Assembly: GCA_022843265.1 (NCBI GenBank)
Contig: JALHNZ010000006.1
Span: 1-64,000 of the forward strand
Length of the DNA: 64,000 nucleotides
Reading direction: 5' to 3'
DNA from: Gemmatimonadaceae bacterium
Lineage (GTDB): Bacteria; Gemmatimonadota; Gemmatimonadetes; Gemmatimonadales; Gemmatimonadaceae
The notes below the pieces were generated by a model. That model was not told the DNA's origin, searched no databases, and saw only the letters and a list, made by a program, of their open reading frames with translations. Positions 26,351 to 32,763 of this stretch are shown piece after piece (position 1 is the first letter of the stretch; each line of letters starts with the position of its first letter). A program made the position numbers and the translations under genes.

Positions 26351-26494
26351 TGCTGATGCTGTGATTCTGGTGATAAACCGTGGAGCAGCGCGTTTCGGTG
26401 TTCGTCGCGTGCTTCCCCGATGCTGGGATTCGATGCAATGTACGAGCGATACCGATCCTACGCCGAATGTGTTGTCTCTCATGCTGGTACTCAC

Positions 26495-27079
26495 GTGCGA
26501 ATCACTCGGACATCCTTGGTGCTGGTCGTGCTCTGCGCGGCCGTCGTCGCGTGCGGCGGCGGAGGGTCAGACACGTCGGAATCGGCATCGTCGCGCACCA
26601 CGACCGCGTCGCCGAACGTGTCCGCCGATTCCGCCGCCGATAGCGGTGCCGCGCGCGACGCCGGCCGCAATGTGGACAGCATCGTGGCGGCCATTCGTGC
26701 CTGCCCTCGCGACGGTACATGGCATGCGTGCAGCCTTGAGCGCCGTTTACAGATGTCAGGATTTCGCACGGTACGCGCTGATTCCATGGTGCGAATTCCC
26801 GGTGTGTCAAACGACGCCACGCTCTTTCTACTCGGCCGACAGTCGCTGCACGTGGTGTTTTTTGAATCCACAAGCGCGGCCGACGACGCGATGCGGACGC
26901 TCGATTCAGCGCGCGCAGCACCGCGAGGCGACACGGCAGTCGTGTGGCCCGACCGGCCGACGCTCATCCGATCCGCGAACGCGCTGGCTGTTCTGGTTGG
27001 CGGCTCGGATCGAACGGTCGAACGCGTGGCCAACGCGATAACCGCTGGTCCGCCCCAACCGGAGCGAACAACTCCTTAA
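26495..27079 (+). CDS. Lipoprotein of unknown function
   Basis: A 194-residue protein if started at GTG 26495, which makes a compact lipoprotein signal VRITRTSLVLVVLCAAVVAC. An in-frame ATG at 26420 would add a 25-residue polar leader. The Cys is followed by a glycine, serine and threonine linker (GGGGSDTSES...), then a folded region of ~130 residues with NVDSIVAAIRACPRDGTWHACSLERRLQMSGFRTVRADSMV and VVFFESTSAADDAMRTLDSARAA. The two cysteines in ACPRDGTWHAC may form a disulfide. No family recognised. Confidence 0.72.
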   Translation: MRITRTSLVLVVLCAAVVACGGGGSDTSESASSRTTTASPNVSADSAADSGAARDAGRNVDSIVAAIRACPRDGTWHACSLERRLQMSGFRTVRADSMVRIPGVSNDATLFLLGRQSLHVVFFESTSAADDAMRTLDSARAAPRGDTAVVWPDRPTLIRSANALAVLVGGSDRTVERVANAITAGPPQPERTTP

Positions 27080-27142
27080 GACAGTTACTGTTTTTGGCTT
27101 TTGTTCGGCATTTACGTCACTCACTTGGTACTGATCAGCATT

Positions 27143-27161
27143 TTCTGCACGGATTGCAATT
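27143..27161. promoter_or_regulatory. Upstream operator-like dyad 1 of glutamine synthetase
   Basis: TTCTGCA-CGGAT-TGCAATT: the inner TGCA palindrome halves match exactly and the outer bases partly. The 10-mer TTTTCTGCAC recurs 73 bases downstream in a second dyad, about seven helical turns away, which suggests paired binding sites of a regulator. Confidence 0.6.
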
Positions 27162-27215
27162 TATCTGCGTCATTTAGTCGAAAAAGCATTGATATGGCGT
27201 CTGAAATCACTAGTT

Positions 27216-27234
27216 TTCTGCACACCATGCAGAA
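27216..27234. promoter_or_regulatory. Upstream operator-like dyad 2 of glutamine synthetase
   Basis: A perfect dyad TTCTGCA-N5-TGCAGAA, 66 bases before the glutamine synthetase start, with the same half-site and spacer as the element at 27143-27161. It lies in the AT-rich region 27080-27299, which holds no other gene I can support. Confidence 0.68.
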
Positions 27235-27299
27235 TGCGACCACCCATCGGGCTTGTTGGGGGTGCGGCGCGCTTCCACTTACGCTCTCATTAAACGGTC

Positions 27300-29528
27300 A
27301 TGGCCATCGACTCGATTAACCCGCGCTTTGCGATTCTGCGCGAGATCACGCATCGCGGCGTACGCATCACGCCGCGCCCTATGGACGAAAACGGCGTGGT
27401 ACTGCCGACGTCTGCATTTTTTGGCGACAACACGTTTGGCCTGCGTCAGATGCGTACCAAGCTGCCGGCCCACGTGTACGCGTCGCTTGCCGACTCCGTA
27501 CGACTGGGCCGCAAGCTCGACAGCGACATCGCGCCGATTGTTGCCCAGGCAATCAAGGAGTGGGCGATCTCGCGTGGCGTCACGCACTTCACGCACTGGT
27601 TTCAGCCGCAGACCGGCCTCACGGCCGAAAAGCATGACGCGTTCCTCGGTTTTGATGAAAACGGTTTGCCGATCGAGCAGTTCTCCGGCGAGCAGCTGAT
27701 TCAGTCGGAGCCGGACGCATCAAGCTTCCCGAGCGGCGGTCTTCGGGCCACGTGGGAAGCGCGCGGGTACACGGCGTGGAATCCTGCCAGCCCGGTGTTC
27801 ATCGATGAAGAAGGCGGCACGCGCACGCTGTGCGTTCCGTCGGTATTCATTGGCTACAATGGTGAAGCGCTCGATGAAATGACGCCGCTGCTGCGCAGCT
27901 CGGATGTCATTTCACAGAAGGCGATGGCGCTGCTTGAAATGATTGGTGATACGGGTGTGCAGCGTGTCGTCACCACGCTCGGTCCGGAGCAGGAGTTCTT
28001 CATGATTGATCGCGGGCACTTTGCGCTGCGCCCCGACCTCGTCATGGCGCGACGCACCTTGCTTGGCGCCGAGCCGCCACGCGGCCAGCAGCTTGAAGAC
28101 CACTATTTCGGTGGCATTCCAGAGCGTGTACAGGCGTGCATCAGCGAAGTGGAAACCGATCTGTACAAGCTTGGTGTGCCCATCATGACGCGTCACAACG
28201 AAGTGGCGCCATGTCAGTTCGAAATGGCGCCGTTGTATGAAGAAACCGATGTCGCCGTTGATCACAACCACATGGTGATGGAAGTGCTCAAGAAGGTGGC
28301 CATGCGTCATGGTCTGCAGGCCATCATGCACGAGAAGCCGTTTGCGGGCATTAACGGATCGGGCAAGCATTGCAACTGGTCGCTGGCGATCACGTCGGAC
28401 AACTCGCTCGACGGCATGAATCTGCTCAAGCCCGGCAAGACACCGCACGAGAATTTGCGCTTTCTGCTGTTCCTTGCGGCTGTCCTCAAGGGCGTCCACA
28501 AGCATGGTGCGTTGCTGCGCGCCGGCATTGCCACGAGCGGCAACGAGCATCGTCTTGGCGCAAACGAAGCACCGCCAGCGATCATCTCCGTGTTTCTCGG
28601 CCGCTCGCTCACCCAGGTGTGCGACGACATTGCAGCTGGCAAGACGGGGAAGGGTTCAGCCGAGCAGACCATGCTCAAGCTTGGTGTCGACAAGTTGCCC
28701 GAAGTCGTGCAGGACAACACCGATCGCAATCGTACGTCGCCGTTTGCGTTTACCGGTGCAAAGTTTGAGTTCCGCGCGGTTGGCGGATCACAGAGCATCG
28801 CGTTCCCGGTCATGTTGCTGCAGGCAGCGGTGGCAGAAGCCATTGACGACATCACCGGCGACCTGAAAAAGGCGCTCAAGACCGCCAAGACCACCGGCGA
28901 CGCAGTGCTCGCCGTTGTGCAGAATGCGTTCAAGAGCACGGCCGCGATTCGCTTTGAAGGCAACAACTACTCCGACGAGTGGGTAGTGGAAGCCAAGAAG
29001 CGCGGTTTGCCGAATATGCGTCGCACGCCGGAAGCGTTGCAGGCCCTGGTGAGCGACTCGTCGCGCAAGTTGTTTGAACACACTGGCGTCCTGACCAAGC
29101 CGGAGCTCGACAGCCGCTATCACATTCGGCTGGAGCGGTACAACAAGGATCTGCTCATTGAAATGCACACGCTGCAGCAGATGGTCGACACGCAGGTTCT
29201 GCCGGCGTGCTATACGTACTTCGGCGATTTGTCGGGCGACGCGGGTCGTGGCGCCGCCTCGGGCATCAACATGCAGCCGCTGATCAACGCGGCAAACACG
29301 GTGAGCAATCTGATCACCGCGCTGCAGAAGGCGCGCACCGATCTCAGCAAGGTGCTCACCAAGGCGGAGGCATTGCACGACGACATCGTGGCGCAGGGCG
29401 AGATCATCTCCACAACGGGCCGCGAAGCGATGGATGCCGTGCGCGTGGTGTGTGATTCGCTCGAGCTCACCATTGGTGACTCGTACTGGCCCCTGCCCCG
29501 TTACCGCGAAATGTTGTTCCCCGTCTAA
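27300..29528 (+). CDS. glnN: Type III glutamine synthetase
   Basis: A 742-residue cytoplasmic enzyme of the GSIII group (glutamate + ammonia + ATP to glutamine), much longer than GSI (~470). The GSIII-specific N-terminal half is visible: GVRITPRPMDENG, FGDNTFGLRQMRTKLP, THFTHWFQPQTGLTAEKHDAFL. The catalytic region contains GPEQEFFMID, HNEVAPCQFEMAPLYEE, DHNHMVMEVLKKVA, EKPFAGINGSGKHCNWSL and ATSGNEHRLGANEAPPAIISVFLG. It begins at ATG 27300 after a 220-base AT-rich leader with two dyads and ends at a strong terminator at 29553-29588. It is probably the main ammonia-assimilating enzyme; nitrogen control via the dyads is inferred. Confidence 0.96.
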   Translation: MAIDSINPRFAILREITHRGVRITPRPMDENGVVLPTSAFFGDNTFGLRQMRTKLPAHVYASLADSVRLGRKLDSDIAPIVAQAIKEWAISRGVTHFTHWFQPQTGLTAEKHDAFLGFDENGLPIEQFSGEQLIQSEPDASSFPSGGLRATWEARGYTAWNPASPVFIDEEGGTRTLCVPSVFIGYNGEALDEMTPLLRSSDVISQKAMALLEMIGDTGVQRVVTTLGPEQEFFMIDRGHFALRPDLVMARRTLLGAEPPRGQQLEDHYFGGIPERVQACISEVETDLYKLGVPIMTRHNEVAPCQFEMAPLYEETDVAVDHNHMVMEVLKKVAMRHGLQAIMHEKPFAGINGSGKHCNWSLAITSDNSLDGMNLLKPGKTPHENLRFLLFLAAVLKGVHKHGALLRAGIATSGNEHRLGANEAPPAIISVFLGRSLTQVCDDIAAGKTGKGSAEQTMLKLGVDKLPEVVQDNTDRNRTSPFAFTGAKFEFRAVGGSQSIAFPVMLLQAAVAEAIDDITGDLKKALKTAKTTGDAVLAVVQNAFKSTAAIRFEGNNYSDEWVVEAKKRGLPNMRRTPEALQALVSDSSRKLFEHTGVLTKPELDSRYHIRLERYNKDLLIEMHTLQQMVDTQVLPACYTYFGDLSGDAGRGAASGINMQPLINAANTVSNLITALQKARTDLSKVLTKAEALHDDIVAQGEIISTTGREAMDAVRVVCDSLELTIGDSYWPLPRYREMLFPV

Positions 29529-29617: not shown

Positions 29618-30244
29618 TTAATCGCTCGTCACGCCGACCAGCAGCGACCGCACGCGGTCAGCCGGATCTTCGGCACTGAGTACATATCCGCAGGTCGCCA
29701 CGCCACGTGCGCCGGCCATGAGACATTCCCGAGCGTTGTCGGACGTGATACCGCCCAGTGCCACCACTGCCACGCCGCTGCGCGCAGCATCGCGAATCGC
29801 GCGAACGCCCGCAGGCGCAGCATCGGGCTTCGACGCCGTCGCAAACACGGGAGCCAGCAAGAGGTAGTGCGCCGCGTGCGAGAACGCGTCTGCTTCCGCG
29901 TGCACCGACCGGCCAACGAGCGTTGAAACAGCGGCGGCCGCAAAAAGCGCATCGCGCTCCGTACAATGGACCGACAGCCGCAGTTCGGGATATGCGGTGC
30001 GCAACATGGCATAGGCGCTCGGCCGTACGGCCCATGTGACGCGCGGATCGGACACCGCATCGAGCAACACATGACACAACGCGATGTATGCGAACAGATC
30101 GAGATCCGGTTCGCGCACACGGATCCATCGCGCGCCACCCTGCGCTGCTCCACGCAGCGCATCTGGTAGTGCCAACAGGCTTCGCGCGCGATCGGTGATC
30201 ACCATCAGCGGCGATGGCAGCACTACGTCATCTGGCGAATCCAT
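29618..30244 (-). CDS. thiE: Thiamine-phosphate synthase-like protein (ThiE/TenI family)
   Basis: A 208-residue TIM-barrel protein with ThiE/TenI blocks: LMVITDRARSL, GGARWIRVREPDLDLF, SVHCTERDAL, HYLLLAPVFATASKPDA and VVALGGITSDNARECLMAGARGVATCGYV. ThiE joins the pyrimidine and thiazole moieties. Related TenI proteins only aromatise the thiazole, and the short degenerate motifs here (for example VREPDL instead of a lysine-bearing LR.K) leave TenI function open. The start overlaps the thiG stop by one base (TAATG). Last gene of the thiOSGE operon. Confidence 0.82.
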   Translation of the reverse strand: MDSPDDVVLPSPLMVITDRARSLLALPDALRGAAQGGARWIRVREPDLDLFAYIALCHVLLDAVSDPRVTWAVRPSAYAMLRTAYPELRLSVHCTERDALFAAAAVSTLVGRSVHAEADAFSHAAHYLLLAPVFATASKPDAAPAGVRAIRDAARSGVAVVALGGITSDNARECLMAGARGVATCGYVLSAEDPADRVRSLLVGVTSD

Positions 30245-31020
30245 TAGCTGCCAATCATGCCAATTTCAGGACTCGATGGATCGGCGAACAGGCGTTCAGG
30301 AATGCGTCCCGCCAGGCGCGCCGAACGGCCGGCGCGCACCGCATCGCGCAGTGCCGCAGCCATGAGCACCGGATGGTCGGCGCGTGCGACCGCGGTATTG
30401 GCCAGCACTGCACTCGCGCCAAGCTCCATCGCAAGCGCCGCATGAGACGCCGTACCAATACCCGCGTCGACAATCACCGGTACCGCACTGCGCGAGCACA
30501 AATGCTCAAGCGTGGACGGATTCAGAATGCCGCGGCCTGAGCCAATGAAGGACGCCAGCGGCATCACGGCTGCACAGCCCACATCAGCCAGGCGCTGACA
30601 CGCCACCGGATCATCTGTACAATACGGCAGCACAATGAAACCGTCGCGCACCAACTGTTCGGCCGCCTGCACAAGTTGCACAATATCCGGATACAACGTT
30701 TCGCGATCGCCGATCAATTCAAGCTTGAGCCACGGCGTGCCCAGTGCTTCGCGTGCGAGGTGTGCTGTCAGTACCGCATCACGCACGGTAAAACAGCCCG
30801 CTGTGTTCGGAAGCAGCCGGTACGAACCTCCAAGTAGCGACGGCAGCGATTCCCCATCACCGCTCAGCGCGATGCGTCGCACGGCAACGGTCACAATCTC
30901 CGTGCCGCTTTCCTTGAGCGCGTCAAGCAACGTGCCGCGATTGGGATATCCGGCCGAACCGAGCAACAACCGCGAAGCAAACGTCTCACCGCCGAGCGAA
31001 AACAGATCGGCGTTAGCCAC
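30244..31020 (-). CDS. thiG: Thiazole synthase ThiG
   Basis: A 258-residue TIM-barrel enzyme. [10 protein letters not shown] is the typical first strand; [16 protein letters not shown] contains the Schiff-base lysine, followed by [17 protein letters not shown]. The signature [22 protein letters not shown] and [33 protein letters not shown] and the closing [16 protein letters not shown] complete the family profile. It makes thiazole phosphate from DXP, iminoglycine (from ThiO) and ThiS thiocarboxylate. Overlaps thiS by 8 bases. Confidence 0.95.
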
Positions 31021-31228
31021 CCGCCACCGCCGTGATGATTTCTACGCGATCGTTGGCGTGCAGTTGCACGTCGTCCCACGCCGCGCGCGGCACGACCGTG
31101 TCATTGACCGCAATGGCCACGTGTCGCGTATCGGCGCGTAGCGAGAGCTGCTCGAGCGCAGCGTGCAGCGATGGTGAAGGCAGTTCCTGCATCGCGCCAT
31201 TCAGCTGTACGCGGACGCGCGGCGACAC
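31013..31228 (-). CDS. thiS: Sulfur carrier protein ThiS
   Basis: A small ubiquitin-like protein of 71 residues if started at GTG 31228. It ends in the required Gly-Gly (ITAVAGG) that is adenylated and thiocarboxylated to donate sulfur to ThiG. The beta-grasp core is [24 protein letters not shown]...[36 protein letters not shown]. An in-frame ATG at 31315 would give 100 residues and overlap thiO by 56 bases; 31228 gives the family's usual ~66-70 residue length and is preferred, though neither start has a clear ribosome-binding site. Confidence 0.87.
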
Positions 31229-31259
31229 GACAGGATTCGCGGCGTCGCCCGTCGAATGT

Positions 31260-32489
31260 TCAGAGGGCGGCGTGAGCGGGGACCTGGATGTTTCTGAAAC
31301 CGGCAAAGTCGGCATCGAATCGTGCGGGAGCGAATGCGCTGATCCAGTCGGGCTCAGCCTGATCGCAGATGGTCATGGCAATCGCGTCGGCCGTGGCAGG
31401 CGCAAGCAATATGCCATTGCGGTAGTGACCGGTGGCGAACAACAAACGTTCGTCTCGGTGTCCAATCATGGGTGCATCATCACGCGAGCCCGGGCGAAAT
31501 CCGCACCAGGTCTCAACCACGCGTGCCGACTCCACAGCAGGCATGGCGCGCCACGCACCTTCCAACAAATGCAACAAGCCGCCCGCCGTGACACCGTCCT
31601 CAAAACCACGGTCTTCGACCGTGGCACCAATGAGCAGTCGACCTGATGTTCTCGGAACAAGATACACACGGGGCGTGAACACTGCGTGCTGAAGCAGCGG
31701 CGTGCTATCGGGCAGTTCCACCGACAGCATTTGTCCTTTCACGGGATGTACGGGCGGCTTCCATTCATCGGGAATTCCCCCAACGGATCGCGACCAGGCG
31801 CCAGCGGCAACAACAATGTAATCCGCCTCGAGCTGCCCAAGTTCTGTCACGATCATGGGTCTGGCACCGCCAAGCGCAACCGCGTCTACGCGACGCTGGT
31901 GCACCGCTACACCGTGTGCTCCCAATACATCGCGCAGCGCCACCAGCACCGCACGTGGATCAACCTGACGATCATTGGGCAAGTGACGCGCCGCCAGCGC
32001 GGTCGCCTCAAGATTCGGCTCGAGTTCACCGAGTTCGGCGCGCGTTAACCAGCGCTGTGCTGTGCCCAGCGCCTCATGGTACGAGTGTGTATGCTCAAGC
32101 TTCTTGACATCGTCACGCGTGAGTGCAATCACGAGCGAACCGCGGCTACGAAAGTCGAGCGGAATTGTGGATTGACCTTCGAGCTCGCGCGCAAACGCCG
32201 GCCACAACGAGAGGCTGCGCAAGCACAGCTCGTGCAGCGCATCTTCGGTGGGCTCGGCTTCCACTCCAGGCGCCAGCAGTCCGGCAGACGCACGACTGGC
32301 AGCGAAACAACCGCGCCCCTGACTTGGTCCACCAGCATCGAATACGTCAACTCGGCAACCGCGTTGCACGAGGCGCCACGCGATGGACAGCCCAATAATT
32401 CCAGCGCCAACAATCGCGACGTGTGGTGCAACGCCGGAGGCAGACACACGTGCCCCCTGAGTAGGATCAACTGACAAAGTACCGGACAC
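31260..32489 (-). CDS. thiO: Glycine oxidase ThiO
   Basis: A 409-residue FAD-dependent oxidase. The Rossmann motif VAIVGAGIIGLSIAWRL opens the protein after a short N-terminal leader. Later blocks are LAARHLPNDRQVDPRAVLVAL, the FAD-binding strand YIVVAAGAWS and LLFATGHYRNGILLAPATADAIA. It oxidises glycine to iminoglycine for ThiG, replacing the tyrosine lyase ThiH in aerobes. Start GTG 32489 is chosen because TGAGGAG lies 6 bases upstream (32496-32502), the clearest ribosome-binding site in the window; the adjacent GTG at 32492 is only 3 bases away. First gene of thiOSGE. No TPP riboswitch is seen upstream. Confidence 0.93.
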   Translation of the reverse strand: MSGTLSVDPTQGARVSASGVAPHVAIVGAGIIGLSIAWRLVQRGCRVDVFDAGGPSQGRGCFAASRASAGLLAPGVEAEPTEDALHELCLRSLSLWPAFARELEGQSTIPLDFRSRGSLVIALTRDDVKKLEHTHSYHEALGTAQRWLTRAELGELEPNLEATALAARHLPNDRQVDPRAVLVALRDVLGAHGVAVHQRRVDAVALGGARPMIVTELGQLEADYIVVAAGAWSRSVGGIPDEWKPPVHPVKGQMLSVELPDSTPLLQHAVFTPRVYLVPRTSGRLLIGATVEDRGFEDGVTAGGLLHLLEGAWRAMPAVESARVVETWCGFRPGSRDDAPMIGHRDERLLFATGHYRNGILLAPATADAIAMTICDQAEPDWISAFAPARFDADFAGFRNIQVPAHAAL

Positions 32490-32763
32490 CACAAACTCCT
32501 CAGCAATAAGGCTTAGCCGCCACTTCACCCGCACCCTGCCCCATTCAACCACTCCGCGAACACTACGAGCTCATCCGTGCGGACGTTGGCGCCCGGTGCC
32601 ACGTTGGATGATGTGCGCGCGTTCGCGTGCGGCGATCGTGCATGATGCTGGCGCTCCCGTGTGCGGCGCTGCACAATCATCTACAGGCGCCGTTGCAACA
32701 CTGCGGTGGCGCGGCGCGCGTTCAGTGGGGGCGTGCGATTACGTCGCGACTGAGGAACGTGTG
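32490..32763. other. Divergent intergenic region between thiO and the DUF5519-like gene
   Basis: This 274-base region contains the thiO ribosome-binding site (32496-32502, minus strand) and a plus-strand AGGAA site (32753-32757). I looked for a TPP riboswitch on the minus strand and did not find its conserved core. No other gene or repeat is supported. Confidence 0.6.

Follow-up and report, generated by a model that had tools for sequence, protein, structure and literature searches.

The type III glutamine synthetase gene (glnN) of the window, meaning the whole 64,000-nt stretch of Gemmatimonadaceae DNA that was analysed, is preceded by two dyads that are a real and conserved two-site operator, predicted from comparison of related leaders to act in nitrogen assimilation. 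Two copies of one motif lie a conserved whole number of helical turns apart, at a fixed 73 or 74 bp, around a predicted promoter, and the pair recurs at other nitrogen genes. It is likely that the two dyads form a composite repression operator, bridged by a putative global regulator of nitrogen assimilation that encloses the predicted sigma70 promoter.

The glnN locus

The locus contains the following features, the two extended operators being defined from the window read together with the family profile.

27132–27172, no strand assigned: distal extended operator, TG-N12-TGCACGGATTGCA-N12-CA
27146–27158, no strand assigned: distal operator core, centre 27152, corresponding to the first dyad of the initial annotation (27143–27161)
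27189–27194, forward strand: predicted −35 element, TTGATA
27205–27245, no strand assigned: proximal extended operator
27211–27216, forward strand: predicted −10 element, TAGTTT
27219–27231, no strand assigned: proximal operator core, TGCACACCATGCA, centre 27225, corresponding to the second dyad of the initial annotation (27216–27234)
27300–29528, forward strand: glnN, type III glutamine synthetase, 742 aa (GSIII_N 3.4e-69, Gln-synt_C-ter 2.3e-39, Gln-synt_C 2.5e-19)

The initial annotation had drawn attention to the dyads TTCTGCACGGATTGCAATT (27143–27161) and TTCTGCACACCATGCAGAA (27216–27234), with starts 73 bases apart, within an AT-rich leader of approximately 220 bases ahead of glnN. Both placements are accurate, and the leader is real, extending from 27080 to the ATG at 27300. 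The 10-base identity claimed for the two dyads is likewise present, with TTTTCTGCAC found at 27141–27150 and again at 27214–27223. The description as a perfect dyad with 7-bp arms applies to the second alone, whilst the first is palindromic just in its inner TGCA/TGCA. With up to three mismatches, TTCTGCA-N5-TGCAGAA occurs nine times in the window, compared to 2.9 expected (none of 100 shuffles reaches nine), and its only exact copy in the whole 4.63-Mb genome is the downstream dyad. The distal site of the window possesses both outer pairs (TG at 27132 and CA at 27171); at the proximal site the outer C at +19 is present and the G at −19 is absent.

With regard to the neighbouring genes, a 219-aa gene with a lipoprotein-like start and without a Pfam match lies just 5′ of the leader (26420–27079, forward strand), and small genes similar to it, as judged by eye, precede glnN in some Gemmatimonas-type loci (L095 and L315). 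Convergent with glnN (29621–32552, reverse strand) is a thiE-like gene (TMP-TENI, Pfam); the genes after it resemble, by eye, thiG, thiS and thiO.

Conservation of the motif and of its spacing

A type III enzyme is present in 97 of 149 relatives. From the family of the window genome (G000), the Gemmatimonadaceae (f1, including Gemmatimonas and Roseisolibacter), 78 upstream regions were read; L042, whose contig ends 2 bases upstream, was dropped to give 77 leaders, and G075 was left out. For the sister family f2, 12 of the 19 GSIII-bearing genomes were read. Gene starts were taken as the nearest in-frame start, and were set by hand in 11 loci. To count as a pair, two cores had to be 73 or 74 bp apart, with no more than one mismatch in one of them and no more than two in the other.

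Exact TGCA-N5-TGCA occurs at 38 sites in 31 of the 77 f1 leaders, against 0.8 expected from dinucleotide shuffles, and with one mismatch there are 116 sites in 63 leaders, against 13 in shuffles. Comparison of TGCA/TGCA spacers from 0 to 15 gives 38 sites for N5 and no more than three for any other. Conservation of both dyads and of their phase in orthologous leaders had been put forward as a check on the initial annotation, and a pair at 73/74 bp is indeed found in 52 of the 77 leaders, where 100 shuffled sets have a mean of 0.21 and a maximum of 2. In 29 leaders neither core of the pair has more than one mismatch. The table of 52 carries a neighbouring pair for L046, and L007 is ambiguous. 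Motif and distance are together kept over 51 genomes of the family. Next in frequency are distances of 82 and 64 bp (73 ± 9), which derive from a third TGCA half-site, with other neighbouring values falling away; pairs shifted by one turn (62–64 or 83–85 bp) are rarer and mostly due to this 9-bp half-site repeat.

These comparisons refine the initial annotation in two respects. The full TTCTGCA arms are not the conserved unit, which is instead TGC-N7-GCA with an outer G and C at −19 and +19. The proposed whole-turn spacing holds in that seven turns are kept (73.5 bp being seven turns of 10.5 bp), but it is the absolute distance of 73/74 bp that is conserved, and not merely any integral number of turns. 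The broader suggestion of an undescribed nitrogen operator with two phased sites is supported, and of the outcomes that had been named as refuting it, none of the computable ones occurred.

The 25 leaders lacking a pair by the above rule include all four of genus g7, all three of g32 and that of the congener G004, in which the proximal site is degenerate. Amongst the 12 f2 leaders there is neither an exact TGCA-N5-TGCA nor a 73/74-bp pair; an exception near f2 is a single Gemmatimonadales contig (L402), which has an f2-like GSIII and carries the pair. The operator of the f1 genome G046 is the same as that of Roseisolibacter sp. H3M3-2 (L389), a genus of the Gemmatimonadaceae, and the GSIII leader of Gemmatimonas sp. 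UBA2094 (L376) also bears the pair.

Anatomy of the sites and the predicted promoter

Alignment on their centres reveals the same arrangement for distal and proximal sites, with TGC at −6 to −4, GCA at 4 to 6, and an outer G at −19 and C at +19. Within the proximal set (n = 52) the outer G occurs in 42 and the outer C in 45 (P = 3e-15 and 8e-17, respectively); in the distal set the corresponding values are 75 % and 56 %. The complete pattern G-N12-TGC-N7-GCA-N12-C is exact in 48 of the 77 leaders, against 1.1 in shuffles.

Between the sites, the hexamers TTGATA-N16-TAGTTT (8 of 12 positions) would place the glnN start point of the window at approximately 27222–27225, where it would coincide with the proximal dyad, the distal one being located near −73; a scan of the window with a stricter promoter pattern listed none. 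Across the 52 leaders, sigma70-like hexamers (at least 7 of 12) have a −10 element starting 11–15 bp before the proximal centre in 23 cases, other offset windows accounting for 0–8. By this peak, the predicted start point falls within the proximal site. A second class of promoter, with its −10 element 3′ of the proximal site (TACATT at +17), was considered and rejected, as it occurs in 8 of the 52 leaders and unrelated offsets give 8 and 7.

The pair at other nitrogen genes

An exact search for the double site matched 15 of 179 family genomes, the matches including glnN leaders, the P-II genes L103 and L104, and the glnA gene L105. R1, a model based on sequence alone, was trained on 25 glnN leaders, with L046 in corrected form and L007 excluded, and run on the same 179 genomes; it has matches at an E-value of 1 or better in 141 of these, those at glnN being partly its own training set. 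In a first batch of 20 R1 places without prior link to glnN, five were at glnN, eight at P-II/amtB (one via a porin gene that precedes P-II) and two before a molybdopterin nitrate-reductase-type gene. The remaining five lay elsewhere: two at transglutaminase-like genes, one at a gluconate-dehydrogenase/GMC pair, one at a peptidase C26 gene and one at a gene without an assigned family. A second batch of 20, in which weaker matches were included, contained four at glnN, six at P-II/amtB, one at an aminotransferase–nitrilase pair and nine at others (most with E > 0.001). The presence of the dyads before amtB and glnK homologues, another check set by the initial annotation, is thereby confirmed with a model that had been built on glnN only.

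Scoring by mismatches finds the pair in three of 15 P-II loci drawn from 20 genomes, to which R1 adds G026, and in 10 of 30 f1 glnA loci, the limit for the latter being 450 bp from the assumed start of the match. In those of the pair-bearing glnA loci that were compared (G008, G033 and G057), glnN is divergent from glnA. The window's own glnA has no pair, and a P-II gene was looked for in the window genome and not found. From these matches, the predicted regulon of the pair comprises glnN, P-II/amtB, nitrate reductase and, in some genera, glnA.

A number of further arrangements were observed at these loci. A strong pair stands before a transglutaminase-core gene in L212 (G151) and L214 (G044), possibly reflecting a new nitrogen-scavenging function. 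Genes for an aminotransferase and a nitrilase-like protein, which resemble glutamine transaminase and omega-amidase, are divergent from P-II/amtB across one operator in L208, L209 and L318, and stand alone behind an operator in L299. In the glnN leader of L015 (G037), tandem GCAGTTC-like units lie between the operator and the start codon. Genomes of g7 and most of g32 are without a detectable glnA (GSI) and also without the operator, with G156 of g32 harbouring both; G159, G069 and G208 are exceptions. Such co-occurrence could hint at a role for GSI in signalling, by analogy with GlnR systems.

Proposed mode of action and alternative explanations

In the proposed mechanism, a dimer or higher oligomer would bind each 41-bp site (G-N12-TGC-N7-GCA-N12-C). 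The two complexes would lie on one helical face, separated by seven turns, and touch across the predicted sigma70 promoter, which they would enclose, with glnN being repressed when nitrogen is plentiful. A glutamine or PII-type signal may act at the pair. Binding at the proximal site would block RNA polymerase, for which reason repression is the most straightforward function to assign; this sign of regulation is read only from where the proximal site lies. That the two copies of the motif keep to one distance in base pairs, instead of varying by whole turns, suggests that the bound units touch, by bridging or by wrapping; since DNA of 73 bp is stiff, a loop would need bending or wrapping.

A separate division of labour is possible but considerably less probable: the distal site, at about −73, would serve a class I activator when nitrogen is scarce, a repressor would use the proximal site, and the two would have no contact; the fixed distance would reflect each site's own fixed place relative to the promoter. 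That the proximal site covers the predicted start point in many leaders is consistent with this. Class I activators usually tolerate whole-turn shifts, however, and the one-turn shifts described above are rare and mostly attributable to the half-site repeat; both sites, moreover, are the same motif. A precedent does exist in Paenibacillus polymyxa, where, in excerpts of PMC6191146, GlnR acts on nif as an activator at an upstream site and as a repressor at a downstream one 118 bp away, the two sites flanking the promoter as they do here. Contact between like units around the promoter remains the preferred reading.

Neither a known nitrogen regulator, an RNA structure nor chance accounts well for these observations. 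The target genes are those of GlnR, NtrC or NtcA, in genus g2 glnN is immediately preceded by an Lrp gene, and the half-site TGCA presumably recalls both NtrC and the archaeal Ss-LrpB box; it is nonetheless improbable that the pair is the operator of GlnR/TnrA, NtrC with sigma54, NtcA or a glutamine-sensing Lrp. The NtrC enhancer consensus TGCAC-N7-GTGCA has no match in the 77 leaders, exact or with one mismatch, and the NtcA consensus GTA-N8-TAC has none. The sigma54 −24/−12 element TGGCAC-N5-TTGC is exact in one leader and present with one mismatch in three, against 1.7 in shuffles, and shows no fixed offset in the 52 pair-bearing leaders. For the GlnR/TnrA consensus TGTNAN7TNACA (given in excerpts of PMC6191146 and PMC9249791) there are no exact matches and two with one mismatch (3.5 in shuffles). 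No Lrp homologue was found in ten g14 genomes, G008 or G048. That the proximal dyad is an RNA hairpin of the 5′ leader and the distal copy an accident is very unlikely: in the window its arms can pair as a stem of 7 bp closed by a loop of 5 bases, close to the predicted 5′ end, but the leader folds no better than shuffles (z = −0.54) and matches no Rfam family, and the distal copy, upstream of the promoter, is about as conserved. Consistent pairing in the 52 leaders is confined to the three TGC/GCA positions (0.90–1.00), with values of 0.25–0.46 at positions 7 to 11 further out, and no covarying stems were seen beyond the core. Chance palindromes in an AT-rich leader might explain the modest excess within the window (9 versus 2.9), yet are refuted, with next to no probability left to them, by the persistence of motif and distance over 51 genomes and by recurrence at other nitrogen genes.

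Candidate regulators

An Lrp/AsnC protein is an attractive candidate because Sa-Lrp has glutamine as a cofactor and wraps DNA (PMC3584215), and because an Lrp gene adjoins glnN in g2. The three g2 genomes whose glnN leaders were read (G005, L047/L155; G060, L048; G079, L050) have this gene directly upstream of the operator and glnN, encoding proteins with 74–81 % identity to that of G005, which are perhaps a local glutamine sensor that joined the locus. As a general regulator it was rejected. Homologues were matched at 1e-4 in 81 of 179 genomes but in none of ten from g14, several of which are rich in operator matches, G017 and G044 having eight each; G008, G017 and G048 possess just one short AsnC-domain frame apiece (119, 103 and 94 aa, respectively).

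ROK (NagC-like) regulators with a conserved Arg-rich N-terminus follow P-II–amtB in G013 (L318:4582-5814) and Roseisolibacter (L389:6251-7462), and abut the operator in G066 (L303:1211-2425), although this applies to only part of the family. Full-length relatives (at least 44 % identity) are limited to some genera, the operator-bearing genomes G008, G048, G005, G027 and G052 having only more distant ROK proteins, and this candidate was also rejected as a general regulator. A MerR-like protein has its gene close to glnA in 80 of 89 f1 genomes and 46 of 60 f2/f3 genomes; it is a possible but unspecific candidate, being present in operator-free genomes (g7, g32 and g18) as well. A LysR-type regulator may also be considered, as the core TGC-N7-GCA has the form of a T-N11-A box (64 of the 77 leaders). 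In two Gemmatimonas-type genomes (L310 and L311), a gene recognised by eye as encoding an NsrR-like Rrf2 protein lies near P-II; it adjoins an NnrS-like gene and was considered unrelated.

Relation to known systems

The NagC, LacI and GalR repression loops likewise depend on a pair of operators that flank a promoter and are separated by whole helical turns, but with other motifs and sugar regulons. NtrC/sigma54 systems share the nitrogen regulon and TGCA-containing half-sites, whereas here neither the NtrC half-site spacing nor a −24/−12 promoter is seen, and a sigma70-like promoter lies between the sites. Lrp/AsnC operators (Ss-LrpB and Sa-Lrp) have TTGCA-type half-sites and an AT-rich centre, yet many operator-bearing genomes in the present set are without an Lrp homologue. 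Archaeal Lrp sites are helically phased, with a spacing of two or three turns in excerpts of PMC2995911, as opposed to seven here. The GlnR/TnrA operators of Bacillales (MerR family) are similarly dyads before glutamine synthetase and ammonium genes, with repression under nitrogen excess (excerpts of PMC9249791); they differ from the present sites in that the latter have TGC-N7-GCA, an outer G/C at −19/+19 and a fixed 73/74 bp, with TGTNAN7TNACA being absent.

In the titles and opening parts of abstracts listed by literature searches, there is no account of nitrogen-assimilation control in Gemmatimonadota and no description of a paired 73/74-bp operator; such control thus appears to be undescribed so far in this phylum. 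The outcome is an operator of defined sequence, a spacing rule (73/74 bp) and a set of target genes in Gemmatimonadota nitrogen metabolism, with which a single DNA fragment can serve as bait to isolate the regulator. Its unusually strict spacing further suits the pair to the study of short repression loops or of wrapped DNA.

Occurrence beyond the family

When 84,980 species genomes were scanned for exact copies of the double site together with the outer CA, 99 stretches were obtained, of which 80 were listed. Of those listed, 15 are from Gemmatimonadota, 12 of them with glutamine synthetase, AmtB, P-II or nitrate reductase adjoining. Amongst the 65 listed from other phyla, five have glutamine synthetase directly downstream, so that such cases number at least five: L360, L361, L385 and L401 from Acidobacteria, and L367 from Oligoflexia. 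The other 60 listed stretches have no query gene adjoining the site, and look like chance or repeats. On balance, we lean slightly towards a previously undescribed global nitrogen regulator, common to Gemmatimonadota, some Acidobacteria and at least one member of the Oligoflexia, which would read pairs of 41-bp operators exactly seven turns apart and shut glnN, glnA, glnK–amtB and nitrate-assimilation promoters by bridging or wrapping.

A Fis-type protein was also considered as a general regulator and rejected, with no small counterpart seen in f1, where the HTH_8 matches listed in 19 genomes belong to frames of 213–1089 aa, nearly all longer than 350 aa. In one Acidobacterium, a small Fis-type helix–turn–helix protein (L360:2171-2551, reverse strand; HTH_8 5.3e-10) is encoded directly upstream of the operator and glnA, and is a candidate regulator in that organism.
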